NCBI GenBank assembly: GCA_000719105.1
Contig: JODX01000003.1
Coordinates: 287,916-351,915, forward strand
Length of the DNA: 64,000 nucleotides
From: Streptomyces sclerotialus
Lineage (GTDB): Bacteria > Actinomycetota > Actinomycetes > Streptomycetales > Streptomycetaceae
Reading direction: 5' to 3'
Shown here: positions 28,992-47,985 of the stretch, in pieces
Layout: every line of letters starts with the position of its first letter
Numbering within the stretch: position 1 is the stretch's first letter
The notes under the pieces: generated by a model
Told to the model about the DNA's origin: nothing
Database searches by the model: none
What the model saw: only the letters and a program-made list of their open reading frames with translations
Program-made: the position numbers and the translations under genes

Positions 28992-29100
28992 CGGCATGCG
29001 CAGCCCGCGAGCTGGAGACGGCGGAGGCCAACTGTGTGGTGCTGTGGCAATGCGACCCGCCAACAGGGGATGGGTTCGCGGCACCGGAAGGAGACCCACT

Positions 29101-29559: not shown

Positions 29560-29571
29560 CCGGTCACGCCT

Positions 29572-29613
29572 GAACGGGTCGGGGCCTCCCTCCGCGGATG
29601 CCCCGACCCGTTC
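29572..29613. terminator. Hairpin terminator
   Basis: Perfect 14-bp stem (29572-29585 with 29600-29613), 14-nt loop, 12 bp after the stop of the 152-aa protein gene. Confidence 0.85.
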
Positions 29614-29692
29614 GAGTCTCTGGGGCGTGTCGTGGGTGTGTTCCGGATACGGTGCGACGCCAGCACCGTTCCGCATCCGCGTGAGGAAGCAC

Positions 29693-31352: not shown

Positions 31353-31512
31353 GAGGGAAGGTGCTTTCTTCCTGGATGGTCAGGCCCTCGCTCGGGAGTG
31401 CAAGTCCCGGCGGGGGCCGTCGCATGTCTGCGGATTGTGTGAAGTTCTGTGAGGTTCTTCGGGGCGAGCCTGCCCGCCTGCACCGCAGACGCGCCAGCCG
31501 GAACGGCCCGGT

Positions 31513-32067: not shown

Positions 32068-32246
32068 GGCGCTTTGCTCATTCACATCACTCAGCGTGTT
32101 CACACCTGCGTAACCTGTGAAGAAGGTGTCCCCGTGCGACGGATGGCTGTCCGGGCCGTGCCCGGTTCCGTCCGGGCGGTACGGCATGACCGGCCGCGGG
32201 CGCGTGCGTTGGACGGAGAACGGCTCGGCGGGAAAGGGCGGCGGAC

Positions 32247-33071: not shown

Positions 33072-33280
33072 CCGTCAAGCCCTCTGCCGGAACCGGTACC
33101 GGCACCGAGCTGAACTGGATAAAAAGCAGCTACAGCACAGCTGACGGCCCGTCCTGCGTAGAAGTGGCAGCACCCCCCGCCCACATCCTCGTCCGCGACT
33201 CCAAGAACCCCCGAGGCCCCCGCCTCACCCTCACCCCCACCGCCTGGGCGGCGTTCCTGCCCTACGCCTCCGAACGCTGA
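33068..33280 (+). CDS. DUF397 domain protein
   Basis: 70 aa with the diagnostic DUF397 pattern LNWIKSSYSTADGPSCVEVA and VRDSKNPRGPRLTLTPTAWAAFL. These small proteins partner with XRE/DUF5753 regulators and are thought to relieve repression. Its ATG overlaps the regulator's TGA. Its last 19 bp overlap the convergent TetR gene. Confidence 0.93.
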   Translation: MTVKPSAGTGTGTELNWIKSSYSTADGPSCVEVAAPPAHILVRDSKNPRGPRLTLTPTAWAAFLPYASER

Positions 33281-33870
33281 CCCAGCACCCTGGCCGTGAA
33301 GTCGGCCAGCCGGCTCCGCAACCGCTCCCGTTCCACCCCCCGCACGCCCACCAGGTGTTCCACCAGATCGGCCCGTACGGCGGCGAGCAACGCGTGTGCG
33401 GCGAAGTCACCGGAGCCGTCGCCGTCGACGTCACCGAAGCCTGGCACCTGCTCCAGCGCATCCCGCAGCAGGCCGTGCCACCGCTCGTAGTGGTCCGCGT
33501 CGTAGGGACTGTCGCTGCCCGTCGCCTCCAGCGCCAGCGCGAGATGACGGTTGTCGATCTTGAGGCACAGCAGGGCGTCCAGCACGGCGGGTACGCGCTC
33601 CAGCGGCGGGGTGTCAGGTCCCAGCGGCGGCGGTCCCGCGGTCACGGCCTCCTCGACCGGCTCCAGCCGCGCGGCGTACAGCGCACGGATCAGCCCCGTG
33701 CGGTCACCGAACGCGCGGAACAACGTTCCCTTGCCGACCCCCGCCGCCGCCGCGACGTCGGACATGGTCACGTCCTCGGGGCGTGCGCGGCTCGCGAAGA
33801 GCTCCTCGGCGGCGGCGAGCAGGGAGGCCCGGTTGCGGGCGGCGTCCTTGCGCGGCTTGCGGTCGGCCAT
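33262..33870 (-). CDS. TetR-family regulator
   Basis: 202 aa. HTH at about residues 10-55 (NRASLLAAAEELFASRARPEDVTMSDVAAAAGVGKGTLFRAFGDRTGLIRALY), then a helical ligand domain. ATG preceded by AAGGAA. Divergent from an NTF2-like/NmrA-like operon, with two matching near-palindromes between the genes, so it is probably the repressor of that operon and of itself. Confidence 0.9.
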   Translation of the reverse strand: MADRKPRKDAARNRASLLAAAEELFASRARPEDVTMSDVAAAAGVGKGTLFRAFGDRTGLIRALYAARLEPVEEAVTAGPPPLGPDTPPLERVPAVLDALLCLKIDNRHLALALEATGSDSPYDADHYERWHGLLRDALEQVPGFGDVDGDGSGDFAAHALLAAVRADLVEHLVGVRGVERERLRSRLADFTARVLGQRSEA

Positions 33871-33908
33871 GTGGTTCCTTTCCAGCGGCGAGGGGCGAGG
33901 TTGCAATC

Positions 33909-33959
33909 CGGACCGGCGGTCCGTATCTTCGGTCACACGTTAACCAGACCGCCGGTCCG
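33909..33959. promoter_or_regulatory. Two candidate TetR operators
   Basis: CGGACCGGCGGTCCG (33909-33923) is a perfect palindrome around a central base. CAGACCGCCGGTCCG (33945-33959) is the same motif with one mismatch and inverted centre. The 36-bp centre-to-centre spacing and position between divergent starts fit control of both genes. Confidence 0.7.
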
Positions 33960-33982
33960 CATCGTACGCCATGGAGACAGCC

Positions 33983-34435
33983 ATGCCCTCGAACGCGACC
34001 AACACCTCCACCCACGCCCCCACCGCACCCGCCGATCTCTTCCGTCACGGCCTGCGCCTGCTACTGGAGAAGGACATCGACGCCTGGCTCGGCCTGTGGG
34101 CCGAGGACGGCGTCATGGAGTTCCCGTTCGCCCCGGAGGGCCGGCCGCGCCGACTGGACGGCAGGGAGGCCGTCGCGTCGTACATGCGCGACTACCCGGA
34201 CCACATCGACCTGCACGACTTCCCCGACGTGACGATCCACCAGACCACCGACCCGGAAACCATCGTGGTCGAGATGCGCGCGGTCGGCCGCCTGGTGCAG
34301 ACCGACAGTCCGTACGACATGACGTACGTCGCCGTCGTGAGCGTCCGGGACGGCCGCATCACCGCCTACCGCGACTACTGGAACCCCCTCGCCGTGCAGG
34401 ACCCGGCCGCCGACTTCGTCGGGAGCGCCCGATGA
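33983..34435 (+). CDS. NTF2-like (SnoaL-type) protein
   Basis: 150 aa, one SnoaL/NTF2 domain (ADLFRHGLRLLLEKDIDAWLGLWAEDGVMEFPFAP...REAVASYMRDYP...VVSVRDGRITAYRDYWNPLAV). Family members are small enzymes (isomerases, cyclases) or ligand-binding proteins. ATG 33983 has GGAGA upstream; ATG 33971 is an alternative. The next gene overlaps by 4 bp (ATGA). Likely TetR-regulated. Confidence 0.87.
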   Translation: MPSNATNTSTHAPTAPADLFRHGLRLLLEKDIDAWLGLWAEDGVMEFPFAPEGRPRRLDGREAVASYMRDYPDHIDLHDFPDVTIHQTTDPETIVVEMRAVGRLVQTDSPYDMTYVAVVSVRDGRITAYRDYWNPLAVQDPAADFVGSAR

Positions 34436-35298
34436 CCGCCACCGGCACCACTCTCGTCATCGGCGCGACGGGCACCACCGGCAGCCGTACCGCCGCACGA
34501 CTCCTCGCCGCCGGGCACCGCGTGAAGGCCGCCTCCCGGCGCGCCACCCCGGTCCCGGGCGCCGAAGCCGTCCGCTTCGACTGGTACGACCCCGCCACCT
34601 TCGACGACGCCCTCGCCGGAGCCGACCGCGTCTACCTCGTCCCGCCGGTGGGCGACCCCGACCCGGCCGCCGTCATGCTGCCGTTCCTGAAGCAGGCCCG
34701 CGCCGCCGGAGTGCGCCGCGCGGTGCTGCTCAGCTCCTCGGCCGTCCCGGCCGGAGGCCCGGCCGTCGGCGCCGTGCACCAGGCCCTGCCCGGGCTGTTC
34801 GAGGAATGGGCGGTTCTCCGGCCGTCGTGGTTCATGCAGAACTTCACCGGGGGGCACGCCCACGCCACCACCCTCCGTGAGACCGGCACCGTCCTGACGG
34901 CGACCGGCGACGGTCGTGTCGGCTTCGTCGACGCGGACGACATCGCGGCCGTCGCCGTTCACGCCCTCACCGACGAGTCCGCCCCCGGCACCGACCTGGT
35001 CCTGACCGGGCCCGAGGCACTGAGCTACGACGACGTCGCCGCGATCTCCGCCGAGGTCACCGGCCGACCCGTGGTCCACCAACGGCTGACGTACGAGGGG
35101 ATGTGCGACCACCTGACGCGCGCCGCAGGCATCCCCGCGGAGTTCGCCGCGATGCTGGCCGCCATGGACCAGGCCATCGCCGAGGGCTCCGAGGACCGCA
35201 CCACGGACGCCGTCGAGCGACTTACCGGCCGTCCTCCGCACGACCTGCGCACCGTCCTCCTTCGGGAGGGCGTCGGGCGCGAGCAGCCGACAGGGTGA
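34432..35298 (+). CDS. NmrA-like NAD(P)-binding protein
   Basis: 288 aa atypical SDR. Dinucleotide motif VIGATGTTGSRTAARLL (residues about 8-24), VRRAVLLSSSAVPAG, LRPSWFMQNF, VGFVDADDIAAVAVHAL, and C-terminal LTYEGMCDHLTRAAGIP. Such proteins act as NAD(P)H:quinone-type reductases or redox sensors. Translationally coupled to the NTF2-like gene. A diverged copy of its last 62 bp recurs downstream of the first STAND gene. Confidence 0.88.
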   Translation: MTATGTTLVIGATGTTGSRTAARLLAAGHRVKAASRRATPVPGAEAVRFDWYDPATFDDALAGADRVYLVPPVGDPDPAAVMLPFLKQARAAGVRRAVLLSSSAVPAGGPAVGAVHQALPGLFEEWAVLRPSWFMQNFTGGHAHATTLRETGTVLTATGDGRVGFVDADDIAAVAVHALTDESAPGTDLVLTGPEALSYDDVAAISAEVTGRPVVHQRLTYEGMCDHLTRAAGIPAEFAAMLAAMDQAIAEGSEDRTTDAVERLTGRPPHDLRTVLLREGVGREQPTG

Positions 35299-35302
35299 GG
35301 CG

Positions 35303-35390
35303 CGGAGCACTTTCCCACTCCTGGTGGTGAGGCGTGAGCGATGTGGCCGAACTCCTGCGGACGGGCTCAGCCTGCTGCTAGCACCGAGCC
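35303..35390 (+). promoter_or_regulatory. STAND-array promoter module, copy 1
   Basis: Contains AGCACTTTCCCAC (35306-35318), TGCGGA (35356-35361, -35 position), a 17-bp spacer and TAGCAC (35379-35384, -10 position) within TGCTGCTAGCACCGAG. The same arrangement precedes all four STAND genes, at 54-60 bp from the start codon. Confidence 0.6.
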
Positions 35391-35438
35391 ACACACGGCG
35401 GTTGAGGAACCGCGGCGGGATCGGGAAGGGGCCGTAGC

Positions 35439-37562
35439 GTGGCGGCGGAGCGGCGGTTGGGCAACCTGCCCAAGGAGACGAACCAGCTGGTCGGACGGCG
35501 GTCGGAGCTGGACCAGGTGGCCCGGCTGTGTGGGCGGTCGCGGCTGGTGACGGTGACGGGCGTGGGCGGGGTGGGCAAGACCCGGCTGGCCCGGCGGGTG
35601 GCGGGCGAGCTGCAGCCGTCCTTCACGGACGGGGCGTGGTGGGTGGAGCTGTCCCCGATCGGCGCGGGCATGGAGGCGCTGCCCTACGCGGTCGCCGAGG
35701 CGCTGCCGCTGGCCGACCAGACCACCCGGCCCATGCTGGAGGTGGTCGCCGAGTACCTGGCCGGGCGGCAGGCGCTGCTGGTGTGGGACACCTGCGAACA
35801 CCTGGCGGAGGACTGCCGGGAGATGGCGGCAACGCTGCTGACCGTCGCCCCGGGCCTGCGGATCCTGGCCACCAGCCGCTGCCCGCTCGACCTGGCCTGC
35901 GAGGAGATGCTCGCCCTCGACCCGCTCCCGGTCCCCGGGGCCGACGACGAGGCGGCGGACGCGGTACTGCTGCTGGCCGACCGGGCCGCACAGGCCGTGC
36001 CCGGCTTCACCGTCACCGACGCCAACCGCGCCGAGCTGGCCGCCCTGTGCCGCCGCCTGGAAGGGCTGCCCCTCGCCCTGGAACTGGCCGCCGCCCGCCT
36101 GCGCGAGATGCCGGTGGCCGAGCTGAAGCAGCGGCTCGACGACCGGTACGCCGTCCTCGGCACCACCGACGAGCCGGTCCACGGCGTCGATCCCCCCTGG
36201 CACCAGGCCCTGCGCACCGCGATCGGCTGGAGCCACCAGCTGTGCACCCCCGCCGAGCGGTTGCTGTGGGCGCGGCTGTCCGTGTTCGCCGACACCTTCG
36301 ACGCCGAGGCCGCCCGGCAGGTCTGCGCCGACGCGCAGCTGCCCGGGGAGGAGGTGCCGGCGCTGCTGGCCGCGCTGGTGGAGAAGTCGATCCTGACCTG
36401 GGTGCCCACCGGGGGCGGCGAGCGGTACCGGATGCTGGACACCATCCGCGAGTTCGGCGCCTTCTGGCTGCGGGGCCTGGGCGAGGAACAGGCGGCGCGC
36501 CGCCGCCACCGTGACCACTACCTGACCCTGGCCCACGAGGCGGATGCCGCCTGGTCCGGGCCCGGCCAGACGGCCTCGAAGGACCGGATGAGCGCCGAAT
36601 ACGCCAACCTGCGTGCCGCGCTGGACTTCTGCCTCGCCGAGAAGGACGGGCGCACCGCACTGGAGATGGGCGGTGCGCTGGGGTTCCTCTGGTACGCCTG
36701 CGGCTTCGCCCGGGACGGCCGCCACTACCTGGAGCAGGCCCTGGCCCTGGAGCAGGCTTCGAGCCCCGCGCGTGCCAAGGCGCTGTGGGCCGCGAGCCTC
36801 GTCGCTCTCGTCCAGGGCGACACTGAGGCCGGCAGCCGTCTCGCCACCGCGTTCCAGCAGGCCGTGGCCGAGGAAGCCGACGCAACCACCGCGGTTGCCG
36901 TCCTCACTCTGGAAGGCGCCAGCCTGACGGTGAGCGGCCGGCACACGCAGGCGGCCAAGGTGCTTGCCGATCTGCCGCCCGCCCCGCCGGTCGACGGCCG
37001 CTACCACGCGGCCTGGGTCATGGCACGCAACACGCAAGCCCTCGTCCACAACCACCTCGGACAGTTCACCGACGCCCTGGCCACCGCCGACGACCTGTGC
37101 GCCGAGTGCGCCCGGCGCGGAGAGACCTGGTCCCGCGCCTGGGGCGACTACATGCGCGCCCTTGCCGCACTCGGACTGGGACGCGCGTCGGAGGCCGCAG
37201 CCCATGCCCGTACCGCCCTCGCCGGCAAGCAGCGCCTCCACGACGACATGGGCATCGCCATGACCACCGACCTGCTCGCCTCCGCCGCCATCGCCTCTGG
37301 CCGGATCGAACAGGCGGCCCGCCTCCTCGGCCTCGCCGAGCAGGTCTGGCACACCCTCGGCACCCCCCAGGCGGGCATCCCCGAACTCGTCGCCGCCCGC
37401 ACCGCATGCGAGAAGCAGGCCCGCCACCTCATCGGCGACGCCACCTACCAGACCGCCTTCGACGCCGGCTACGACACCGACCTCGACACCGGCATCGCTG
37501 AAGCCCTCACCCCGCCCGAGCCCTCACCGCACGCCCCTCTCCGGCCCGGCCCCACTGGCTGA
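35439..37562 (+). CDS. STAND (NB-ARC type) ATPase with TPR-like repeats, paralogue 1
   Basis: 707 aa. NLP-x-LVGR entry motif, Walker A GVGGVGKT (residues 41-48), Walker B LLVWD (Asp117) followed by TCEHL, sensor-like LATSRCPLDL, GLPLALEL (GxP), then a winged-helix ARC2 part (WHQALRTAIGWSHQLCTPAERLLWARLSVF...RYRMLDTIREFG) and a helical TPR-like region (about 340-690). It resembles LuxR-type STAND regulators but stops after the TPRs: the C-terminal LuxR HTH is absent and no DNA-binding or BTAD domain precedes the NTPase. GTG start with GGAAGGGG. Likely an ATP-driven signalling switch; input and output unknown. Confidence 0.88.
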   Translation: MAAERRLGNLPKETNQLVGRRSELDQVARLCGRSRLVTVTGVGGVGKTRLARRVAGELQPSFTDGAWWVELSPIGAGMEALPYAVAEALPLADQTTRPMLEVVAEYLAGRQALLVWDTCEHLAEDCREMAATLLTVAPGLRILATSRCPLDLACEEMLALDPLPVPGADDEAADAVLLLADRAAQAVPGFTVTDANRAELAALCRRLEGLPLALELAAARLREMPVAELKQRLDDRYAVLGTTDEPVHGVDPPWHQALRTAIGWSHQLCTPAERLLWARLSVFADTFDAEAARQVCADAQLPGEEVPALLAALVEKSILTWVPTGGGERYRMLDTIREFGAFWLRGLGEEQAARRRHRDHYLTLAHEADAAWSGPGQTASKDRMSAEYANLRAALDFCLAEKDGRTALEMGGALGFLWYACGFARDGRHYLEQALALEQASSPARAKALWAASLVALVQGDTEAGSRLATAFQQAVAEEADATTAVAVLTLEGASLTVSGRHTQAAKVLADLPPAPPVDGRYHAAWVMARNTQALVHNHLGQFTDALATADDLCAECARRGETWSRAWGDYMRALAALGLGRASEAAAHARTALAGKQRLHDDMGIAMTTDLLASAAIASGRIEQAARLLGLAEQVWHTLGTPQAGIPELVAARTACEKQARHLIGDATYQTAFDAGYDTDLDTGIAEALTPPEPSPHAPLRPGPTG

Positions 37563-37573
37563 TCAGGACCGTC

Positions 37574-37635
37574 GCACGACCTGCCCACCGCCCTCCTCCG
37601 GGAAGGCGTCCGACTCGGGCAGCCGACGGGGTGAA
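37574..37635 (+). pseudogene. Remnant of the NmrA-like gene 3' end
   Basis: 62 bp matching 35237-35298 (end of the NmrA-like gene) without gaps at 53 of 62 positions; it still translates HDLPTALLREGV...QPTG and a TGA against HDLRTVLLREGV...QPTG. It is a scar of the duplication that produced the STAND array. Confidence 0.75.
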
Positions 37636-37638
37636 CCG

Positions 37639-38346
37639 TCAGGGCGGCGGAAGGGGGGTGTCGGGGGCCGGCTGAAAGAGCATCAGGGTGAGGTCGTCGG
37701 CCGGGACGGCGTCTCCGGTGTGCCGCTGAAGGAGGTCCAGGAGACGGTCGAGGGCCTGGTCGAGGGTGGGGGCGCGCAGGGCGGCGCGGGCGTGCTCGTC
37801 GAGGGGGAAGAAGGTGCCGTCGGCGGCGCGGGTGTCGGTGAGGCCGTCGGTGTGGAGCAGCAGGCGCTGGTGGGGAAGGACCTGGGCGCGCTGGATATGG
37901 GGGTCCGGGTCCAGGCCCAGGGGTGGGGAGGGCAGGGGCGGGGGGAGGCGGGCGAGGCGGTGGTCGATGCGCAGGGGCGGTGGGTGGCCGCAGTTGACCA
38001 GGCGGACCTCGTCGGGGAGGAGGTCGGCGAGGAGGAGGGTGACGAAGTCCTCCTCGCCCAGGTGGGGGCGGAGGCGGGCATCGAGGGCGCGGGCGAGGCG
38101 GACGAGGTCCTCCTCGGTGGCCGCGGTGTCCCGGAAGGCGGCCAGGACGACGGCGGCCAGCGGGGCGGCGGCGGGGCCGTGGCCCCTGACGTCGCCGAGG
38201 ATCAGACGGGGTCCGGCCGGGGTGAGCACGGCGTCGTGCAGGTCGCCGCCGAGCCGCGCGCCGTCGGCGGGGCGGGAGCGGACGGCCAGGGCGAGGGATG
38301 CCTCGGCGATCAGTGCCGGCAGCGACCGGGCACGGTCCGCGTGCAC
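37639..38346 (-). CDS. PP2C phosphatase (SpoIIE/RsbU type), copy A
   Basis: 235 aa, consisting almost only of the PPM catalytic domain. Metal-binding motifs GGDLHDAV, GDVRGHG, DGLTDTRAADG and DDLTLMLF are all present, so it should be active on phospho-Ser/Thr. Relatives dephosphorylate STAS anti-anti-sigma factors. No sensor, GAF/PAS or TM segment is attached. GTG 38346 is chosen because GGGGAGG precedes it; copy B starts at the same residue. Divergent from STAND paralogue 2 over 184 bp. Confidence 0.86.
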   Translation of the reverse strand: MHADRARSLPALIAEASLALAVRSRPADGARLGGDLHDAVLTPAGPRLILGDVRGHGPAAAPLAAVVLAAFRDTAATEEDLVRLARALDARLRPHLGEEDFVTLLLADLLPDEVRLVNCGHPPPLRIDHRLARLPPPLPSPPLGLDPDPHIQRAQVLPHQRLLLHTDGLTDTRAADGTFFPLDEHARAALRAPTLDQALDRLLDLLQRHTGDAVPADDLTLMLFQPAPDTPLPPP

Positions 38347-38403
38347 CACGCCCCTCCCCGAGCTCACCAGACTCGCCCCACCCCTTCAGGCAGAAAGGCG
38401 TGA

Positions 38404-38485
38404 AGCACTTTCCCACCGCTGGCGGCGGGCCGTGGGTAAAGCGGCCGAAGTGCTGCGGGTCGGCCCGATGTGCTGCTAGCACCGA
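38404..38485 (+). promoter_or_regulatory. STAND-array promoter module, copy 2
   Basis: AGCACTTTCCCAC (38404-38416), TGCGGG (38454-38459), 17-bp spacer, TAGCAC (38477-38482). CCGAAGTGCT upstream of the -35 pairs with AGCACTT as an inverted repeat. Confidence 0.6.
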
Positions 38486-38530
38486 CTCACCCGCGGACAA
38501 ATGCCGCGTCGGGACGAGGAGGAGTTCGAA

Positions 38531-40663
38531 GTGGCGGAAGAGCGGCGGGTGGGGAACCTGCCAAGGGAGACGGGCCGTCTGGTGGGGCGGCGGACGGAGC
38601 TGTCCCAGGTGGGGCGGATGTTCCGGCGGTCGCGGCTGGTGACGGTGACCGGAGTGGGCGGAGTGGGCAAGACCCGGCTGGCCCAGCGGGTGGCGGGCGA
38701 GCTGCAGCCGGCCTTCGCGGACGGGGCGTGGTGGGTGGAGCTGTCCCCGCTCAGCGCGGGCAGGAAGGCGCTGCCGTACGCGATCTACGAGGCGCTGCCG
38801 CTGGCCGACCAGACCACCCGCCCGATGCTGGAGGTGATCGCCGAGTACCTGGCCGGGCGCGACCTCCTGCTGGTGTGGGACACCTGCGAGCACCTCGTCG
38901 ACGACTGCCGGGAGGCGGCGGCGAAGCTGCTGGCCAGGGCCCCGGGCCTGCGGATCCTGGCCACCAGCCGCCGCCCGCTCGGCCTGTCCGCCGAGGAAGT
39001 GGTCGCCCTGGAGCCGCTGCCGGTGCCCGAGGCCGACGATGCGGCGGCCGAGGACAACGACTCGGTGATGCTGCTGACCGAGCGGGCGGCCGAGGCGGTC
39101 CCCGGCTTCACGGTCACCGACGCCAACCGGGGCGAGCTGGCAGCGCTGTGCCGCCGCCTGGAGGGGCTGCCCCTGGCCCTGGAGCTGGCCGCGGCCCGCC
39201 TGCGCGAGATGCCGCCGGCCGAGCTGAACCAGCGCCTGGCCGACCGCTACGCGACCCTCGGCGACACCGACGGCGCGAACTGCGACACCGACCCTCCCTG
39301 GCACCAGGCACTGCGCACCGCGATCGGCTGGAGCCACCAGCTGTGCACCCCGGCCGAACGGCTCGCCTGGGCACGGCTGTCGGTCTTCGCCGGTTCCTTC
39401 GACCTGGAGGCGGCCCGCCGGGTACTGGCCGACGAGCGCCTGCCCATCGCCCAGGTCCCGCACCTCGTCGCGGCGCTGGTGCAGGACTCGATCCTGGAGT
39501 GGACGCCCACCGGGGCCGGGGAGCGGTACCGGATGCTGGACACCCTCCGTGAGTACGGCGCCTTCTGGCTGCACGAGCTGGGCGAGGAGCGGACCGTCCG
39601 CCGTCGGCACCGCGACCACTACCTGGCCCTGGCCCGCGCCGCCGACGCCGCCTGGATCGGACCCGGCCAGGCGGCCCTGTACGACGAGATGACCGCCGAG
39701 CACGCCAACCTGCGCGCCGCGCTGGACTTCTGCCTCGCCGAAGGCGACGGAGGAACCGCGCTGGAGATGGGCGGCGTGCTGTGGTTCTTCTGGTTCGCCT
39801 GCGGCTTCGCCCGGGACGGCCGCCACTACCTGGACCGGGCCCTGGCCCTGGACCCGGCCCCCGGGCCGACTCGGGCCAAGGCCCTGTGGGCCTGCGGCAT
39901 CGCTGCCATCGCCCAGGGCGACACGGAGACCAGCAGCCGTTTCGCCACCGCCTTCCGAGCCGCCGTGGCCGACGACACCGACCGTACCGCCCTCTTCGCC
40001 GCCGCCTATCTGGAGGGCGGCAGTCTCACCGTCAGCGGTCACCAGACGCGGGCCGCCGAGGTACTCGACGCGTCGGCGCACACCCGGCCGTGCCGTGGAC
40101 GCTACGACGCGGCGTGGTTCCTGACACGCGCCGCACGGGCCTTCGTCCACGTCCACCTCGGACAGTTCACCGACGCCTTGGCCGTCGCCGACGAGTTGTG
40201 CGCCGAATGCGGCCGGCGCGGTGAGACCTGGGCCCGCGCCTGGGGCGACTACATGCGCGCCCTCGCCGCACTGGGACTGGGCCGGGCCGAGGAGGCCGCC
40301 ACCCATGCCCGCACCGCCCTCGACGGCAAGCGCCGCCTCCGCGACAGTCTCGGCATCGCCATGGCCATCGACCTGCTCGCCTCCGCGGCCGCCGCGGCCC
40401 GGAACGCTGAACAGGCCGCCCGGTTCCTCGGCATCGCCGAGCGGATCTGGCGCACCCTCGGCACCCCTCAGATGGGCATGCCCGAACTCATCGCGGCCCG
40501 GCGCGCCTGCGAGGCGGAAGCCCGCCGCCTCATCGGGGACGACGCCTACCAGGCCGCCTTCCACGGCGGCTACCACACCGACCCCGCCACCGGCATCGCC
40601 GAAGCCCTGCGCCCGCCCGGCCCCTCGCACCACGCCCCCGCACAGCCCGGCTCCACCGGCTGA
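38531..40663 (+). CDS. STAND ATPase with TPR-like repeats, paralogue 2
   Basis: 710 aa from a GTG with GGAGGAG at 7 nt; the frame is open to an ATG ten codons upstream. Same domain order as paralogue 1: Walker A GVGGVGKT, Walker B LLVWD/TCEHL, LATSRRPLGL, GLPLALEL, winged-helix part, TPR-like half (GVLWFFWFACGFARDGRHYLDRAL...) and no LuxR HTH. The C-terminal half is close to that of paralogue 1. Divergent partner of PP2C copy A. Confidence 0.88.
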   Translation: MAEERRVGNLPRETGRLVGRRTELSQVGRMFRRSRLVTVTGVGGVGKTRLAQRVAGELQPAFADGAWWVELSPLSAGRKALPYAIYEALPLADQTTRPMLEVIAEYLAGRDLLLVWDTCEHLVDDCREAAAKLLARAPGLRILATSRRPLGLSAEEVVALEPLPVPEADDAAAEDNDSVMLLTERAAEAVPGFTVTDANRGELAALCRRLEGLPLALELAAARLREMPPAELNQRLADRYATLGDTDGANCDTDPPWHQALRTAIGWSHQLCTPAERLAWARLSVFAGSFDLEAARRVLADERLPIAQVPHLVAALVQDSILEWTPTGAGERYRMLDTLREYGAFWLHELGEERTVRRRHRDHYLALARAADAAWIGPGQAALYDEMTAEHANLRAALDFCLAEGDGGTALEMGGVLWFFWFACGFARDGRHYLDRALALDPAPGPTRAKALWACGIAAIAQGDTETSSRFATAFRAAVADDTDRTALFAAAYLEGGSLTVSGHQTRAAEVLDASAHTRPCRGRYDAAWFLTRAARAFVHVHLGQFTDALAVADELCAECGRRGETWARAWGDYMRALAALGLGRAEEAATHARTALDGKRRLRDSLGIAMAIDLLASAAAAARNAEQAARFLGIAERIWRTLGTPQMGMPELIAARRACEAEARRLIGDDAYQAAFHGGYHTDPATGIAEALRPPGPSHHAPAQPGSTG

Positions 40664-40778
40664 CCCGGGCCGGACCCACGGCGACGCACCGCGGCCTCTC
40701 CGGCCGACCCGGGCCCGCCCGGAGCGTCCCGCACCGCCGGGCGAGGGCCCGGCCTCGCGGTGAAGGCGGCCCCACCCC

Positions 40779-40807
40779 GTCGAGGAGGCCGTGACCGCGG
40801 GGCCGCC
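40779..40807 (+). repeat. Fragment identical to part of the TetR gene
   Basis: 29 bp (28 identical) matching the reverse complement of 33629-33657, which encodes VEEAVTAGPP in the TetR regulator. It lies between STAND paralogue 2 and PP2C copy B and is a probable rearrangement scar. Confidence 0.55.
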
Positions 40808-40824
40808 CCTGCCGACGTGAACCG

Positions 40825-41532
40825 TCAGGGTGGTGGAAGATCCGTGACAGGGGTCGGCTGAAGGAGCATCAAGGTGAGGTCGTCGGCCGGGGCGGCGCCT
40901 CCGGTGTGCCGGTGGAGGAGGTCCAGGAGACGGTCGAGGGCCTGGTCGAGGGTGGGCGCGAGCAGGGCGGCGCGGGCGTGCTCGTCGAGGGGGAAGAAGG
41001 TGCCGTCGGCGGCACGGGCGTCGGTGAGGCCGTCGGTGTGGAGCAGCAGACGCTGGTGGGGGAGGACTCGGGCGCGCTGGACCCGGGGTTCCGGGTCCAG
41101 GCCCAGGGGCGGGCAGGGGTGGGGCGGGGGCAGGGGGACGAAGCTCTCGTCGATGCGCAGGGGCGGTGGGTGGCCGCAGTTGACCAGGCGGACCTCGTGG
41201 GGGCGGAGGTCGGCGATCAGGAGGGTGACGAAGTCCTCCTGGCCGAGGTGGGGGCGGAGGCGGGCGTCGAGGGCGCGGGCGAGGCGGACGGGGTCCTCCT
41301 CGGTGGCCGCGGTGTCCCGGAAGGCGGTCAGGACGGCGGCGGCCAGCGGGGCGGCGGCGAGGCCGTGGCCCTTGACGTCGCCGATGAGGAGCCGGGGTCC
41401 GGCCGTCGTCATGACGGCGTCGTGCACATCGCCTCCCACCCGGGCGCCGTCGGCGGGGCGGACGCGGACAGCCAGGGCGAGACGAGCCTCGGCCATCAGC
41501 ATCGGCAGCGATCGGGCGCCGTCCGCGTGCAC
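40825..41532 (-). CDS. PP2C phosphatase (SpoIIE/RsbU type), copy B
   Basis: 235 aa, closely similar to copy A along its whole length. Metal motifs GGDVHDAV, GDVKGHG, DGLTDARAADG, DDLTLMLL are intact. GTG start with GGGAGGGG at 5 nt; the codons before it are not conserved with copy A. Divergent from STAND paralogue 3 over 190 bp. Its pairing with a STAND gene, repeated twice, suggests the phosphatase and ATPase work in one signalling unit. Confidence 0.86.
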   Translation of the reverse strand: MHADGARSLPMLMAEARLALAVRVRPADGARVGGDVHDAVMTTAGPRLLIGDVKGHGLAAAPLAAAVLTAFRDTAATEEDPVRLARALDARLRPHLGQEDFVTLLIADLRPHEVRLVNCGHPPPLRIDESFVPLPPPHPCPPLGLDPEPRVQRARVLPHQRLLLHTDGLTDARAADGTFFPLDEHARAALLAPTLDQALDRLLDLLHRHTGGAAPADDLTLMLLQPTPVTDLPPP

Positions 41533-41590
41533 CGCACCCCTCCCAGAGATGAACAAGGCTCGCCCCAGGCTTGTGAGCAAGGAGGCGCGC

Positions 41591-41673
41591 AGCACTATCC
41601 CACTCGCGGTGGCGGACCGTGGGCGAAGTGGCCGAAGTGCTGCGGACGGGCCCGGCGCGCTGCTAGCACCGAG
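41591..41673 (+). promoter_or_regulatory. STAND-array promoter module, copy 3
   Basis: AGCACTATCCCAC (41591-41603), TGCGGA (41641-41646), 17-bp spacer, TAGCAC (41664-41669). Confidence 0.6.
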
Positions 41674-41722
41674 GCACCACGCGCGAGGGCGCGCGGCGGG
41701 AGCGGGAAAGGGGACGGTCACG

Positions 41723-43843
41723 GTGGCGGCGGAGCGACGGGTGGGCAACCTGCCGGAGGAGAGCAATCGTCTGGTGGGGCGGCGGGCGGAACTGGCGCAG
41801 GTGACGCGCGCGTGCGGGCGGCATCGGCTGGTGACGGTGACCGGAGTGGGCGGCGTGGGCAAGACCCGGCTGGCCCGGCGGGTGGCGGGCGAGCTGCAGC
41901 CGTCCTTCACCGACGGGGCGTGGTGGATGGAACTGTCCCCGCTCAGCATGGGCATGGAGGCCCTGCCGTACGCGATCGCCGAGGCGCTGCCGCTGGCCGA
42001 CCAGAGCACCCGGCCGATGTGGGAGGTGATCGCCGAGTACCTGGCCGGACGGAAGACCCTGCTGGTGTGGAACACCTGCGAGCACCTGGTCGAGGAGTGC
42101 CGGCAACTGGCGGGGACGCTGCTGTCGATGGCCCCGGGCCTCAGGATCCTGGCCACCAGCCGCCGCCCGCTCGGCCTGCCCGCCGAGGAGGTGCTCGCCC
42201 TCGATCCGCTGCCGGTGCCCGAGACGGACGACGATGCGGCGGACGCGGTGGTGCTGCTGGCGGACCGGGCCGCGGAGGCGGTGTCCGGCTTCACCGTCAC
42301 CGACGCCAACCGTGCCGGACTGGCCGCCCTCTGCCGCCGCCTGGAGGGGCTGCCACTGGCCCTGGAACTGGCCGCGGCCCGCCTGCGCGAGATGCCACTG
42401 CCCGAGCTGAACCAGCGGCTGGCCGACCGCTACGCGATCCTCGGCGACACCGACGGCGGGAACTACGGCGTCCGTCCGCGCTGGCACCAGGCGCTGCGTA
42501 CCGCGATCGGCTGGAGCCATGAGCTGTGCACCCCGGCCGAGCGGTTGCTGTGGGCGCGGCTGTCGGTGTTCGCCGGCAGCTTCGACGCGGAGGCGGCCCG
42601 GCAGGTCTGCGCCGACGCGCGACTGCCCGGGGAAGAGGTGCCGTCGCTGCTGGCCGCGCTGGTGGAGAAATCGATCCTGACCTGGGTGCCCACGGGGGGC
42701 GGCGAGCGGTACCGGATGCTGGACACCATCCGCGAGTTCGGCACCTTCTGGCTGCACGAGCTGGGCGAGGAGGAGGCACTGCGGTGCCGGCACCGGGCGT
42801 ACTTCCTCGCGCTGGCCCGCGCGGGGGACGCCGCCTGGCTGGGGCCGGATCAGTTCGCCTGGTACGACCGCATGGCCGACGAGCACGACAACCTGCGCAC
42901 CGCGCTGGAGTACTGCCTGGCCGAGCCGGCCGGGCATGCCGCGCTGGAGCTGGCCGGCGCCCTGTGGTTCTTCTGGTACGCCTGCGGGTTCGCCCGGGAG
43001 GGCCGGCACTACCTGGACCGCGCCCTGGCCGCGGACACCGCACCGAGCGGGGCGCGCACCCAGGCCCTGTGGGCCGCGGGGCTCGCCGCGGTCGGCCTCG
43101 GCGACGCGGAGTCCGCCGCCGCCCGCAGCGAGGAAGGCCTGGCCGCGGCCGAACAGCAAGGCGACGACGCGCTCGATCCCGCCCTGGGGGTCTTCTCGTG
43201 CGCCGTGGCCCTGCGGGGCGACCTGGCGGCCATGGAGGCCGTGACCGACCGCATCTTCGCCCTGCCGCAGAAGGACGACGTACTCACCCTGGCCCCGCTC
43301 TTCGGCCTGCAGGTCCGTAGCCACGTTCTCATCTCCGCGGGCGAGCCGGCGAAGGCGCTGACCCACCTCGAGCGGCTGCGCACGCTGTGCGACCGGCACG
43401 GCGAGCGATGGACACGCGCGTTCTGCGACTACTTCCAGGCTCAGGCCGAACTGGCGCTCGGCCGGCCCGACGCGGCGCAGCACCACGCCCGGGAGGCGTT
43501 GCGGATCAAGCACCGGCTCCACGACCGCATGGCGATCGGTCTGCTCATGGACACGCTCGCCGTGGCCACCGGCGCCGCCGGGCAGGCCGAGCGCGCCGCC
43601 TGGCTGCTCGGCCTGGCCCATCAGGTCTGGGGCACCCTCGGGGCGCCGCAGATGGGCCAGCCCCAGTGGGTGGCCGTCCGCCAGGCATGCGAACGCCAGG
43701 CCCGCGCCGCCCTCGGCGACCACGGCTACCGGATCGCGTTCGACACCGGCCACGCCACCGACCTGGACACCGGAATCGCCGAGGCCCTCATCCCGGCTGA
43801 CCCGGCACCCCGCTCCCCCGCACAGCCCGGCGCCACCGGCTGA
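41723..43843 (+). CDS. STAND ATPase with TPR-like repeats, paralogue 3 (Walker B variant)
   Basis: 706 aa. Walker A GVGGVGKT is intact, but Walker B reads LLVWN/TCEHL: Asp117 of the paralogues is Asn (AAC at 42071-42073), expected to weaken Mg coordination or hydrolysis. The NTPase and winged-helix parts remain very close to the other copies. The TPR-like half (from about residue 445) is clearly more divergent (GDDALDPALGVFSCAVALRG...LPQKDDVLTLAPLFGLQVRSHVLISAGEPAKALTHLERL). No LuxR HTH. GTG start. Partner of PP2C copy B. Confidence 0.87.
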   Translation: MAAERRVGNLPEESNRLVGRRAELAQVTRACGRHRLVTVTGVGGVGKTRLARRVAGELQPSFTDGAWWMELSPLSMGMEALPYAIAEALPLADQSTRPMWEVIAEYLAGRKTLLVWNTCEHLVEECRQLAGTLLSMAPGLRILATSRRPLGLPAEEVLALDPLPVPETDDDAADAVVLLADRAAEAVSGFTVTDANRAGLAALCRRLEGLPLALELAAARLREMPLPELNQRLADRYAILGDTDGGNYGVRPRWHQALRTAIGWSHELCTPAERLLWARLSVFAGSFDAEAARQVCADARLPGEEVPSLLAALVEKSILTWVPTGGGERYRMLDTIREFGTFWLHELGEEEALRCRHRAYFLALARAGDAAWLGPDQFAWYDRMADEHDNLRTALEYCLAEPAGHAALELAGALWFFWYACGFAREGRHYLDRALAADTAPSGARTQALWAAGLAAVGLGDAESAAARSEEGLAAAEQQGDDALDPALGVFSCAVALRGDLAAMEAVTDRIFALPQKDDVLTLAPLFGLQVRSHVLISAGEPAKALTHLERLRTLCDRHGERWTRAFCDYFQAQAELALGRPDAAQHHAREALRIKHRLHDRMAIGLLMDTLAVATGAAGQAERAAWLLGLAHQVWGTLGAPQMGQPQWVAVRQACERQARAALGDHGYRIAFDTGHATDLDTGIAEALIPADPAPRSPAQPGATG

Positions 43844-43923
43844 TCCGGCCGGACACCACAGCGACGTACTGCTGTCTCCGCAGCTCAGCTCGTCGACCGC
43901 CTCCGCCGGGCAAGAAGACGCAG

Positions 43924-44006
43924 GGCACACTCTCACTTCCGTCGGCGGGCTGTGGGCGAAGCGGCCGAAGTGCTGCGGCCGGACCGGGCGCGCTGCTAAC
44001 ACCGAG
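43924..44006 (+). promoter_or_regulatory. STAND-array promoter module, copy 4
   Basis: Diverged GGCACACTCTCAC box (from 43924), TGCGGC (43974-43979), 17-bp spacer, TAACAC (43997-44002). No PP2C gene accompanies this copy. Confidence 0.55.
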
Positions 44007-44055
44007 TCCCACACGGGCGGGAGACCGCGGCGGGAGCGGGAAGGGGACGGTCACG

Positions 44056-46185
44056 ATGGTGGCGGGGCGGCGGGTGGGCAACCTGCCGGAGGAGAACGGT
44101 CGTCTGGTGGGGCGACGGGCAGAGCTGGCGCAGGTGGCACGGGCGTGCGAACGGCATCGGCTGGTGACGGTGACCGGGGTGGGCGGAGTGGGCAAGACCC
44201 GGCTGGCCCGGCGGGCGGCGGGCCGGCTGCAGCCGTCGTTCGCGGACGGGGCGTGGTGGGTGGAGCTGTCCCCGCTGAGCGCGGGCAGGGAGGCGGCTCT
44301 GCCGTATGCGATCGCCGAGGCACTGCCGCTGGCCGACCAGACCACCCGCCCGATGCTGGAGGTGGTCGCCGAGTACCTGGCCGGGCGCGACCTCCTGCTG
44401 GTGTGGGACACCTGCGAGCACCTCGTCGAGGACTGCCGGAAGGCGGCGGCGACACTGCTGACCGTAGCCCCGGGCCTGCGGATCCTGGCCACCGGTCGCC
44501 GCCCGCTCGGCCTGGCCTGCGAGGAAGTGCTCGCCCTCGACCCGCTCCCGGTCCCCGGGGCCGACGAGGACGAGGCGGCGGACGCGGTGGTGCTGCTGGC
44601 CGACCGGGCCGCCGAGGCCGTGCCCGGATTCACCGTCTCCGCCGCCAACCGCGCCGAGCTGGCCGCCCTGTGCCGCCGCCTGGAAGGGCTGCCCCTCGCC
44701 CTGGAGCTGGCCGCGGCCCGCCTGCGCGAGATACCACTGCCCGAGCTGAACCGGCGCCTGGACGACCGCTACGCGATCCTCGGCACCACCGACGGCCCGG
44801 ACTACGACGCCGACCCGCCCTGGCACCAGGCGCTGCGCACCGCGATCGGCTGGAGCCACCAGCTGTGCACCCCGGCCGAGCGGTTGCTGTGGGCGCGGCT
44901 GTCGGTGTTCGCCGGCAGCTTCGACGCGGAGGCGGCCCGGCAGGTCTGCGCCGACAAGCTGCTGCCCGGCCAGGAGGTACCGGCCCTGCTCGGGGCGCTC
45001 GTGGAGAAGTCGATCCTGGTCTGGGAGCCGACCGGGGCCGGGGAGCGGTACAGGATGCTCGACACCGTCCGCGAGTACGGCGCCCACTGGCTGCGCGGCC
45101 TGGGCGAGGAGCGGGTGGTCCGCCTTCGTCACCGTGCCCACTTCCTGCACCTGTCCCGCACCGCCGACGCCGCCTGGTCCGGGCCCGGCCAGGTCGTCTG
45201 GCGCGACCGGACGGTCGAGGAGTTCGCCAACCTGCGGGCCGCACTCGACTGCTGCCTCGCCGAGGAAGACGGGCACGCCGCGCAGGAGCTGGGCGGGGCG
45301 CTGTGGTTCTTCTGGTACGCCTGTGGTTTCTCCAACGAGGGCCGTCACTATCTGGACCGGGCCCTGGCCCTGGCCCCGGGCTCCGGGCCGGCCCGCGCCA
45401 AGGCCCTGCTGGCCCGCGGTCTGGTCGCCGTCATCCAGGGCGACGGACTGGCCTGCATCCGTCTCGCCGTCGAGTTCCGCGAGGCCGTGGCCGGGGACAC
45501 CGACGACACCGCCGTGTTCGCCGCCGCCTTCCTGGAGGGCGTCGGTCATGCGGAGTGCGGCCGGCACGCGCAGGCGGCCGAGGTGTACGACGCGGCGCCG
45601 CGCACTCGGCCCGGCACCGGGCGGTACGCCGCGATGTGGTTCCAGTTGCAGGCCAGCTCGGCCTTCGTTCGCGTCAACCTCGGACAGTTCGCCGACGCCG
45701 AGATGATCGCCACGGAACTGCGCGCCGAGTGCGCCCGGCGCGGCGAGGTCCATGTCCGCGCCTGGAGCGACTACATCCGTGCCCTCGCCACGCTGGCCCT
45801 GGGACGGGCGGAAGAGGCCGTGGCCCATGCCCGCAACGCCCTGGACGGCAAACGCCGCCTGCATGACAGCCTCGGCATCGCCCTGACCATCGAGCTGCTC
45901 GCCTCCGCCGCCGGCACCGCCGGGGACGCCGCACAGACCGCACGGCTCCTCGGCCTCGCCGACCAGATCTGGGACACCCTCGGCACCCCTCAGGCGGGCA
46001 TTCCCGAACTCATCGCCACCCGCCAGGCGTGCGAGGCCCGCACCCGCCACCTCCTCGGTGACGACGCCTATCGGACCGCCTTCCGCACCGGCTACGACAC
46101 CCACCTCGACACCGGCATCACCGAAGCCCTGCGCCCGCCCGACCCCTCGTACCAGGCCCCCGCACAACCCGACCCCACCGGCTGA
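44056..46185 (+). CDS. STAND ATPase with TPR-like repeats, paralogue 4
   Basis: 709 aa. Walker A GVGGVGKT, Walker B LLVWD/TCEHL, a sensor segment changed to LATGRRPLGL (Ser to Gly), GLPLALEL, winged-helix part and TPR-like half ending LGTPQAGIPELIATRQACEARTRHLLGDDAYRTAF. No LuxR HTH. ATG start, with GTG as the next codon; GGGAAGGGG upstream. Only 212 bp separate it from paralogue 3, so readthrough from that gene is possible. Ends 17 bp before a strong bidirectional hairpin shared with hemD. Confidence 0.88.
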   Translation: MVAGRRVGNLPEENGRLVGRRAELAQVARACERHRLVTVTGVGGVGKTRLARRAAGRLQPSFADGAWWVELSPLSAGREAALPYAIAEALPLADQTTRPMLEVVAEYLAGRDLLLVWDTCEHLVEDCRKAAATLLTVAPGLRILATGRRPLGLACEEVLALDPLPVPGADEDEAADAVVLLADRAAEAVPGFTVSAANRAELAALCRRLEGLPLALELAAARLREIPLPELNRRLDDRYAILGTTDGPDYDADPPWHQALRTAIGWSHQLCTPAERLLWARLSVFAGSFDAEAARQVCADKLLPGQEVPALLGALVEKSILVWEPTGAGERYRMLDTVREYGAHWLRGLGEERVVRLRHRAHFLHLSRTADAAWSGPGQVVWRDRTVEEFANLRAALDCCLAEEDGHAAQELGGALWFFWYACGFSNEGRHYLDRALALAPGSGPARAKALLARGLVAVIQGDGLACIRLAVEFREAVAGDTDDTAVFAAAFLEGVGHAECGRHAQAAEVYDAAPRTRPGTGRYAAMWFQLQASSAFVRVNLGQFADAEMIATELRAECARRGEVHVRAWSDYIRALATLALGRAEEAVAHARNALDGKRRLHDSLGIALTIELLASAAGTAGDAAQTARLLGLADQIWDTLGTPQAGIPELIATRQACEARTRHLLGDDAYRTAFRTGYDTHLDTGITEALRPPDPSYQAPAQPDPTG

Positions 46186-46202
46186 CCGGGCCGGCACCCA
46201 CA

Positions 46203-46251
46203 ACGACGGCTCAGGGGTGCCCCGAGAACCGGGACACCCCTGAGCCGTCGT
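46203..46251. terminator. Bidirectional hairpin terminator between STAND 4 and hemD
   Basis: Perfect 17-bp stem (46203-46219 with 46235-46251) and a GC-rich loop, between the convergent ends of paralogue 4 and hemD. Confidence 0.88.
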
Positions 46252-46275
46252 ACACCACTCACCGCGCGGCAGCGA

Positions 46276-47985
46276 TCAGGTCGTCGTCGTCCGCCTCCGC
46301 CGAGCACCCGGACGCCGCTCGCTCGGCCGCGTCACCGGATCCCCGGCCTCGAGCGCGGCGGCGCGCCGCCGCAGCCCGAAGTCGGCCAGCGCCTCGGCCA
46401 GCTTGTGCACCGAAGGCTCCGGAGCCATGACGTCGACCCGCAGGCCGTGCTCCTCGGCGGTCTTCGCCGTGGCCGGGCCGATGCAGGCGATAACGGTCAC
46501 GTTGTGCGGCTTGCCGGCGATGCCCACCAGGTTCCGCACCGTGCTCGACGACGTGAAGAGGACCGCGTCGAAGCCACCACCCTTGATGGCCTCCCGCGTC
46601 TCGGCCGGCGGCGGCGACGCCCGCACGGTGCGGTACGCCGTGACGTCGTCGACCTCCCAGCCCAGCTCGATCAGCCCGGCGACCAGGGTCTCCGTGGCGA
46701 TGTCGGCGCGCGGCAGGAACACCCGGTCGATCGGGTCGAAGACCGGGTCGTACGGCGGCCAGTCCTCCAACAAGCCCGCCGCCGACTGCTCCCCACTGGG
46801 CACCAGGTCGGGCTTCACACCGAAGGCCACCAGCGCCTTGGCCGTCTGCTCGCCCACCGCCGCGACCTTGATGCCCGCGAAGGCACGCGCGTCGAGCCCG
46901 TACTCCTCGAACTTCTCCCGTACGGCCTTGACCGCGTTCACCGAGGTGAAGGCGATCCACTCGTACCGGCCCGTCACCAGGCCCTTGACCGCGCGCTCCA
47001 TCTGCTGGGGGGTGCGCGGGGGCTCGACGGCGATGGTCGGGACCTCGTGCGGGACGGCCCCGTAGGACCGCAGCTGGTCGGAGAGCGACGCCGCCTGCTC
47101 CTTCGTGCGCGGGACGAGCACCTTCCAGCCGAACAGCGGCTTGGACTCGAACCACGAGAGCTGGTCGCGCTGCGCGGCGGAGGACCGCTCACCGACCACG
47201 GCTATCACCGGGCGGCCGCCGTCCGGCGACGGCAGCACCTTCGCCTGCTTCAGCGTCTGCGCGATGGAGCCGAGCGTCGCGGTCCAGGTGCGCTGCCGGG
47301 TCGTCGTACCGCCGATCGTGACCGTGAGAGGGGTGTCCGGCTTGCGGCCCGCCGACACCAGCTCACCGGCCGCGGCCGCGACGGAGTCCAGCGTCGTCGA
47401 GACGACGACCGTGCCGTCCGAGGCGCCCACCTCCGTCCAGCAGCGGTCGGAGGCGGTGCGGGCGTCCACGAACCGTACGTCGGCGCCCTGCGCGTCCCGC
47501 AGCGGCACACCCGCGTAAGCAGGCACACCCACGGCGGACGCGATGCCGGGCACCACCTCGAACGGCACGCCCGCGGCGGCGCACGCCAGCATCTCCCCGG
47601 CGGCGTAGGTGTCGAGCCCGGGGTCCCCGGTCACCGCACGGACGACCCGCTTGCCGCCCCGCGCGGCCTCCATGACAAGATTGGCCGCATCCCGCGACGC
47701 GGGAAGTGCAGCGGTTTTTGACGAGCCGTCGACTACCGCGAGCTGAGGCGTGCCCATGGCCGGGAAGACGTCCGCGGACGACCCGGCCGCAGTGTCAAGG
47801 ACGGCAACGCCTGCCCGGGCATGCGCACGGACCACGTCGAGCACCTCGTGCTCGCCGACGAGGACGTCCGCGCTGGCCAGCGCCTCTACGGCGCGCAGTG
47901 TGAGCAGTCCCGGATCCCCGGGTCCGGCACCGAGGAAGGTGACGTGACCGTGGTCCGGACCGGCGGGAAGGGTGGTGGGGCTCAA
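46276..47985 (-). CDS. hemD: Bifunctional uroporphyrinogen-III methyltransferase / synthase
   Basis: 569 aa fusion. Residues about 12-260 are a tetrapyrrole-methylase (CobA/SUMT-like) domain (FLGAGPGDPGLLTLRAVEAL, VVPGIASAVGVPAYAGVPL). Residues about 290-530 are uroporphyrinogen-III synthase (VPRTKEQAASLSDQLRSYGA, IAFTSVNAVKAV, VFLPRADIATETLVAGL, VLFTSSSTVRNLVG). It cyclises hydroxymethylbilane to uroporphyrinogen III. The start is TTG at 47985 (TTG AGC CCC), with GGGGAG at 8 nt and a TTGA overlap with the hemC stop. Last gene of rex-hemA-hemC-hemD. Confidence 0.94.
   Translation of the reverse strand: MSPTTLPAGPDHGHVTFLGAGPGDPGLLTLRAVEALASADVLVGEHEVLDVVRAHARAGVAVLDTAAGSSADVFPAMGTPQLAVVDGSSKTAALPASRDAANLVMEAARGGKRVVRAVTGDPGLDTYAAGEMLACAAAGVPFEVVPGIASAVGVPAYAGVPLRDAQGADVRFVDARTASDRCWTEVGASDGTVVVSTTLDSVAAAAGELVSAGRKPDTPLTVTIGGTTTRQRTWTATLGSIAQTLKQAKVLPSPDGGRPVIAVVGERSSAAQRDQLSWFESKPLFGWKVLVPRTKEQAASLSDQLRSYGAVPHEVPTIAVEPPRTPQQMERAVKGLVTGRYEWIAFTSVNAVKAVREKFEEYGLDARAFAGIKVAAVGEQTAKALVAFGVKPDLVPSGEQSAAGLLEDWPPYDPVFDPIDRVFLPRADIATETLVAGLIELGWEVDDVTAYRTVRASPPPAETREAIKGGGFDAVLFTSSSTVRNLVGIAGKPHNVTVIACIGPATAKTAEEHGLRVDVMAPEPSVHKLAEALADFGLRRRAAALEAGDPVTRPSERRPGARRRRTTTT

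Follow-up and report, generated by a model that had tools for sequence, protein, structure and literature searches.

Why are four STAND ATPases lined up with two protein phosphatases between them, and do the two kinds of protein work together? The question is raised by a locus of Streptomyces sclerotialus (GCA_000719105.1, contig JODX01000003.1, positions 287,916 to 351,915; this whole stretch of 64,000 nucleotides is called the window below). Four paralogous STAND ATPases of 706-720 aa, named S1 to S4, lie head to tail on the + strand (35439-46185), interleaved with two genes on the - strand, A and B, encoding PP2C phosphatases of the SpoIIE/RsbU type. The STAND-PP2C pair was found to recur at unrelated positions in other genomes, and the partners therefore probably work together. 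We tentatively favour a two-protein signalling module, expanded into an array, in which the STAND would control the phosphatase.

The array and the recurrence of the pair

The array begins with S1 (35439..37562, +, 707 aa; NB-ARC, winged helix and TPR), followed by PP2C A (37639..38367, -, 242 aa), S2 (38501..40663, +, 720 aa, or 710 aa from the GTG at 38531, where the conserved part starts), PP2C B (40825..41556, -, 243 aa), S3 (41723..43843, +, 706 aa) and S4 (44056..46185, +, 709 aa). Open reading frames (ORFs) and protein alignment (S2 73%, S3 65% and S4 72% identical to S1) bear out the tandem paralogues described in an earlier note on this DNA. The phosphatase genes are also divergent from STAND genes as stated there: A lies between S1 and S2 and head to head with S2, and B between S2 and S3 and head to head with S3. 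The phosphatases had been called almost identical; they are 83% identical over 242-243 aa (database entry P0129 for this contig gives a PP2C length of 235 aa). Direct repeats underlying the array follow the genes in register, far above chance. Elsewhere in the same genome (85% complete) no STAND is more than 45% identical to S4, and there is one further close PP2C (70%; locus L130, G000:C4:27000-46000), with no STAND match in 19 kb of surrounding sequence. A second, distant PP2C lies 1.6 kb from this copy.

A PP2C was counted as paired if a STAND relative lay within 2.5 kb, and the window's own array was left out of the counts. By this rule, a STAND accompanies the PP2C at 17/22 loci with a PP2C at least 50% identical, compared with 0/12 where the lead PP2C is below 50%. 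The former count comprises 8/8 loci in named genomes, 9/13 places in a Streptomyces set and the unpaired L130 copy, and the latter L038-L045 (named genomes) and L126-L129 (Streptomyces set). The PP2C search in named genomes, with candidates chosen by two peptide patterns, returned at least 16 loci; all eight with a PP2C at 56% or more are paired (six in Streptomyces, one in Actinomadura, one in Nonomuraea), and eight at 31-39% are unpaired. In 246 Streptomyces genomes, 17 PP2C places at E <= 1e-40 were found in 16 genomes besides the window's. Of the 13 with at least 50% identity, nine are paired, three are unpaired (L114, L115 and L117) and one (L116) is at a contig end, while none of the four below 50% is paired. 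The L116 PP2C and a STAND of the same genome (G213, L097) each lie at a contig end with their 5' sides outward. They have the same nearest relatives as the partners at L033 and L035, which would be consistent with a divergent pair cut in two during assembly. On the plasmid side, the search gave short matches only, plus an 11.9 Mb Nonomuraea gerenzanensis record with a STAND (59%) and no PP2C match.

The partners also appear to share their history. In quick trees (38 PP2C and 59 STAND rows; support by the Shimodaira-Hasegawa-like approximate likelihood ratio test, SH-aLRT, only, long branches flagged), PP2Cs and STANDs fall into matching groups: clade B, with seven pairs (L118, L119 and L121-L125), and clade A, which includes the window. 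The clade B loci have flanking genes in common, and their pairs are thus read as one ancestral locus. At the ten clade A pair loci (L033-L037, L113, L120, L147, L148 and L151), STAND and PP2C are the only common members among the called flanking families, except for a single pair of proteins, at least one of them SpoIIE-like, that match at 29%; the ORF calls were mechanical and missed the PP2C itself in L036, L037, L147 and L148, so that a shared small gene could escape. L147 (with a partial PP2C match of 84 residues), L148 and L151 were found through their STANDs and lie outside the 17/22 count. Six of the ten loci are head to head, and in L034, L113, L120 and L151 both genes are on the same strand, with the PP2C upstream and a short gap. 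Around its pair, Streptomyces flavofungini carries one more STAND and two more SpoIIE-type genes, all within 11 kb (L034, 9995-20621). Distances among PP2Cs correlate with those among their STAND partners (r=0.88 for 18 pairs; 0.78 for 11 clade A pairs, Mantel p=0.0001; 0.85 for the seven syntenic clade B pairs, p=0.0016), with L030-L032 and L147 left out and species history not controlled for. Both partners have the same nearest neighbour in 9/11 clade A pairs.

It could be argued that there is no functional link, and that members of two expanded Streptomyces families came to lie side by side by chance in some ancestor and were thereafter copied as one piece. Each family has many members (22-82 STAND candidates per genome among those listed, and 33 SpoIIE matches in the window's own genome), and the clade B pairs amount to one syntenic locus. 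The trees of S3 and PP2C B also mismatch: S3 belongs to a different STAND subclade from S1, S2 and S4 (99% SH-aLRT), though PP2Cs A and B are sisters. Plain tandem copying of the pair would not give this pattern; it calls for homogenisation of the PP2Cs or for a separate arrival of S3 in the array. Against a chance association, the pair is kept in ten different neighbourhoods, and the chance expectation is ∼4% per PP2C, assuming 50 STAND genes per 8.5 Mb, which makes 17/22 very unlikely (related loci being treated as independent). We therefore regard the absence of any link as quite improbable, and the pair proposed earlier as a conserved one, rather than a chance insertion.

The partners and the direction of control

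Pfam NB-ARC matches of all four STANDs are below the curated cut-off, and AAA_16 reaches its cut-off in S3 only. The AlphaFold model of S4 (mean predicted local distance difference test score, pLDDT, 86.7) comprises a nucleotide-binding domain (NBD), helical and winged-helix domains up to approximately residue 350, and then TPR-type helices up to residue 692. Its best PDB folds by Foldseek are the STAND-TPR protein 6mfv (top match, template modelling score 0.50/0.54), Apaf-1, plant NLRs (resistosomes) and CED-4, which supports a predicted STAND fold with a repeat sensor for the array ATPases. No effector domain is present in the S4 model. No SARP DNA-binding domain was found at the N-terminus, the STANDs beginning at NB-ARC (Pfam and S4 model); for a C-terminal LuxR helix-turn-helix there is no Pfam match in the four STANDs, and the S4 model ends after the TPR helices. 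Some database names of STAND homologues say LuxR. The PDB entry closest in sequence is AfsR (8k60, E 9.7e-8; also 8jke). Membership in the AfsR or FxSxx-TPR families was rejected, as NCBIfam scores are far under the cut-offs (for AfsR, 34.7 bits for S1, 28.8 bits for S2 and none for S4, the three scanned, with a cut-off of 1430).

The Walker A motif GVGGVGKT is present in all four array STANDs; G.GG.GKT is kept in 13/13 rows from four species, and G.GG.GK[TS] in 114/120 homologues (the best 120 of 7520). The Walker B Asp is present in S1, S2 and S4 of the window and is replaced by Asn in S3, as in 4/4 species copies of S3 examined and also in S4 of Streptomyces poonensis. Walker B in the same best 120 of 7520 homologues carries Asp in 118 and Asn in one (from the S. 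poonensis array), and one has no recognised motif. Because of this replacement, S3 may be poor at ATP hydrolysis.

PP2Cs A and B give strong Pfam SpoIIE matches (E 5.5e-35 and 2.1e-37, respectively), placing them in the SpoIIE/RsbU type. Residues D43, D60, D175 and D226, which we take from family knowledge to be the metal ligands, are invariant in 43 PP2C sequences. The AlphaFold model of B (pLDDT 90.1) has the PP2C fold, and in structure it comes closest to a Sphaerobacter phosphatase, the RsbU domain of Rv1364c, and SpoIIE. A hydrophobic N-terminal segment was scored by simple hydropathy in 0/26 short PP2C relatives (<275 aa, some perhaps fragments), compared with 89/93 long ones, which have one to four such segments. 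The array PP2Cs thus appear to be soluble, lacking the membrane region of their relatives as well as a sensor.

Control of the phosphatase by the STAND is favoured because the STANDs lack an effector, the PP2Cs lack a sensor, and the pairs recur and co-diverge. In the proposed mechanism, the STAND would act as an AfsR/MalT-like nucleotide switch. The TPR superhelix would sense a signal, upon which the NB-ARC/winged-helix half would change its nucleotide state and then assemble. The active STAND would bind and switch the neighbouring soluble SpoIIE/RsbU-type Ser/Thr phosphatase, the likely output, which would then dephosphorylate a target, by analogy an anti-anti-sigma factor or another regulatory phosphoprotein. 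Several sensors could feed one type of phosphatase, with NB-ARC halves kept similar, probably by gene conversion, and TPR parts diverging. For the STANDs of this clade, which lack an effector domain, the recurrent pairing provides a concrete candidate partner. If the mechanism is true, the pair would link NLR-like switches to RsbU/SpoIIE-type phosphatase signalling.

Several observations weigh against this mechanism. Viewed from the STAND side, a PP2C is nearby at 5/13 places, absent at seven, and the remaining one is L097 at its contig end (nine other genomes, E <= 1e-190, 392 genomes searched, at most two places per genome scored). Twenty regions around STAND matches without a PP2C match beside them, including six of these 13 places, held no PP2C. 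With 8/13 places lacking a confirmed PP2C, some clade STANDs must work in trans or through a different output. The array itself has two PP2Cs for four STANDs, S1 and S4 having none of their own. The 17 paired loci include the seven syntenic loci of clade B and three (L030-L032) that are this same array, and at S2/A and at L036 the partners disagree on the nearest neighbour. Of the two further PP2Cs of S. flavofungini (45% and 35%), the 45% one is separated by 2.5-2.8 kb from two STANDs and so narrowly misses the pairing rule. No STAND-PP2C fusion occurs among the best 120 of 7520 STAND homologues. The suggestion that one signalling unit had been amplified is borne out in part, since the extra STANDs, the STANDs without a PP2C, the mixed orientations and the separate subclade of S3 do not accord with it.

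Co-location would be equally expected if the PP2C acted on the STAND, and such an AfsR-like reverse arrangement is a close rival. Here, Ser/Thr kinases acting in trans would phosphorylate the NB-ARC half of the STAND, including the Walker A Thr, and blunt its activation by ATP; the PP2C would reset the switch, and the STAND output would be a separate, unlinked partner. Phosphorylation of AfsR, which includes its final Walker A residue, T337, works against the activation of the protein by ATP (PMC10936776), so that a phosphatase could reset the STAND. The phosphorylated Thr is retained in the GVGGVGKT of the array, and AfsR is the closest PDB entry by sequence, as noted above. In addition, the clade PP2Cs are mostly beside a STAND and the STANDs often without a PP2C, as if the STAND were the substrate. 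On the other side, the clade A pair loci share no third gene family, and hence no kinase, and the STANDs would still be without an output. SpoIIE/RsbU-type phosphatases, moreover, usually act on STAS-type partners. The evidence does not strongly separate the two directions, and we consider the reverse one possible, if on the unlikely side.

Evolution, insertion site and distribution of the array

Divergence among the array STANDs differs between the switch and sensor halves. The number of non-synonymous substitutions per site (dN) between paralogues is 0.07-0.15 in the first 240 alignment columns, compared with 0.30-1.21 in columns 440-560 (TPR). Orthologue dN/dS was discarded as a measure of positive selection, since there is hardly any synonymous change in some parts and gene conversion has probably occurred; paralogue dN alone was used. 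Derived changes in the window or S. poonensis match a same-genome paralogue in 127/235 cases in the NB/winged-helix half (54 expected) and in 49/93 cases in the TPR half (33 expected), where the expectation assumes random bases and mutation bias could inflate the excess. The larger excess in the NB/winged-helix half fits gene conversion acting more strongly on the switch than on the sensor.

A block of ∼100 bp upstream of the STANDs is conserved in 13/13 aligned regions (four paralogues, four species) and contains the invariant elements GGCCGAA and CTGCTA(G/A)CACCGA. It lies at 38396..38490 (+) between PP2C A and S2, with similar blocks before S1 (∼35300-35390), S3 (∼41583-41673) and S4 (∼43917-44006), and is probably a shared promoter or operator. 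A family-wide role as operator was rejected: among another 23 upstream regions, the two elements are found together only in front of one STAND of Streptomyces minutiscleroticus (L148), so that the block appears to belong to the array lineage. GGCCGAA alone occurs before two other STANDs (L147 and L149).

HemD adjoins the array on the right, and HemB (26517-27650) lies on the left, such that the hemB-hemD gap in the window is 18.6 kb (27650-46276), array included. In 25/29 other Streptomyces genomes, the 1.5 kb fetched next to hemD contains hemB (it was not seen there in the remaining four, one being at a broken contig), and the 18.6-kb stretch is therefore best read as an insertion. It also encodes an XRE/DUF5753 regulator, a methyltransferase, a TetR regulator, a SnoaL-like protein and an NmrA-like protein. 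Among ten proteins scanned near the array, which do not cover every gene, there was no RsbW-type kinase or STAS protein. Farther along the window, an ECF (extracytoplasmic function) sigma factor is encoded at 53546-54364 (Pfam), presumably BldN/AdsA from the hemA-rex-bldN neighbourhood.

Relatives of the array occupy the same site beside hemD in S. poonensis (L031; the nearest named relative of the window, 94.8% DNA identity over 18.5 kb), Streptomyces ruber (L032) and Streptomyces fumigatiscleroticus (L030); hemB beyond the array is inside the fetched stretch for S. ruber only. STAND copies have been gained or lost at this site. The S. ruber array lacks S1, and the missing stretch is bounded roughly by the positions of two 62-bp direct repeats that flank S1 in the window (35237..35298 and 37573..37634, both +, 85% identical, found by blastn of intergenic stretches). 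The repeat lies at the NmrA-like gene's 3' end. In S. fumigatiscleroticus, S2 is truncated, with its NB-ARC part gone (L030, 10892-11722), and no separate S4 gene was found. Array stretches of this species are 91-92% identical to the window, compared with 82-86% for the hem side, and in a HemD tree the species groups apart from S. ruber, S. poonensis and the window (forks with 85-88% support), which suggests recombinational transfer of the array. In S. minutiscleroticus (L148), the order PP2C (-), STAND (+), STAND (+) occurs at another site, and its own hemD and hemB are adjacent.

Such features raise the alternative of an NLR-like immune cluster, in which changing STAND sensors would detect phage and the phosphatase would drive dormancy or death. 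Copy number varies between close species, the sensor half diverges while the switch half is conserved, horizontal spread is suggested by the S. fumigatiscleroticus array, and the STANDs are structurally akin to Apaf-1 and plant resistosomes. Against this, PADLOC matched 0/6 array proteins, Pfam revealed no killing domain (nuclease, TIR, protease or other) in any of the six, and none of the ten scanned neighbours was recognised as a defence protein (two having no Pfam match). The assignment to phage defence was accordingly dropped, and the phage sensing suggested in the earlier note finds no support in the PADLOC result; we judge an immune role improbable.

The distribution of the STANDs offers another lead. 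The clade is present in 11/13 named species formerly placed in Chainia, a genus defined by sclerotia, compared with 10/392 sampled Streptomyces genomes at E <= 1e-190, which include the source genome, Streptomyces violens and S. minutiscleroticus. The carriers are S. ruber, S. sclerotialus, S. minutiscleroticus, S. poonensis, S. fumigatiscleroticus, S. olivaceiscleroticus, S. violens, S. ochraceiscleroticus, S. purpurogeneiscleroticus, S. niger and S. kunmingensis (from the best 120 of 7520 clusters); S. roseiscleroticus and S. hygroatrocyaneus are former Chainia that are not among these best 120. Synonyms were taken from taxonomy look-ups restricted to names that start with a, c, f, g, h, k, l, m, n, o, p, r, s or v, and the count covers named species only, with azura and the 'g' and 's' entries left out. 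Fisher's test gives p = 1e-14 (second row 9/391, including S. violens and S. minutiscleroticus) or 2e-15 with 12 species, relatedness being ignored and two sources mixed. Other carriers, outside the Chainia count, include S. atriruber, S. longisporoflavus and S. alboflavus (best 120 of 7520). In the HemD tree (one gene), S. violens stands apart from S. poonensis, S. ruber, S. fumigatiscleroticus and S. minutiscleroticus, so that at least two deep parts of the tree are involved.

The Chainia association is a lead, not a result. A bolder and rather unlikely extension of the favoured mechanism is a sensor network, linked to the sclerotium-forming way of life, in which effector-less NLR-like switches with diversified TPR sensors converge on one shared phosphatase of the SpoIIE type; the network might control the formation or germination of sclerotia. 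For the developmental signalling suggested earlier, this distribution gives an indirect hint, of a correlative kind. The literature searched on Chainia and sclerotia yielded no genetics of sclerotia; if the link survives species-level control, it would provide a genetic handle on bacterial sclerotia.

Comparison with known systems

AfsR shares with the array STANDs the NOD (NB-ARC) and TPR architecture and the conserved Walker A Thr that is phosphorylated in AfsR, while the array STANDs lack its SARP DNA-binding domain and form a tandem array with PP2C neighbours. The NBD, helical, winged-helix and TPR parts are likewise found in 6mfv and in the MalT, Apaf-1 and NLR switches, from which the array STANDs differ in having no DNA-binding, CARD or other effector domain. 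The array PP2Cs resemble RsbU, RsbP and SpoIIE (including the RsbU domain of Rv1364c) in their Pfam SpoIIE match, conserved Asp residues and PP2C fold, and differ from them in lacking a sensor domain and in having a STAND ATPase as neighbour. Unlike RsbU/RsbW/RsbV partner switching, the locus shows no RsbW kinase or STAS protein among the ten scanned neighbours, and the clade A loci have no third family in common.

The VMAP and iSTAND NTP-dependent conflict systems also involve STAND ATPases in multicellular bacteria, while the STAND-PP2C pair loci lack a common vWA, MoxR or kinase gene; in the portion of that study consulted, the only PP2C mentioned belongs to a GAP1-N2 system, where its neighbours are a kinase and a vWA gene rather than a STAND (Kaur et al. 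2020, PMC7159879). Kinase-PP2C fusions and AfsR are treated in PMC1262709, with no STAND-PP2C pair in the sections seen. No description of STAND-PP2C pairing was found in the literature searched, as judged by title or the start of the abstract. Both kinds of protein are already known, and what is new is their recurrent pairing and its arrayed form.

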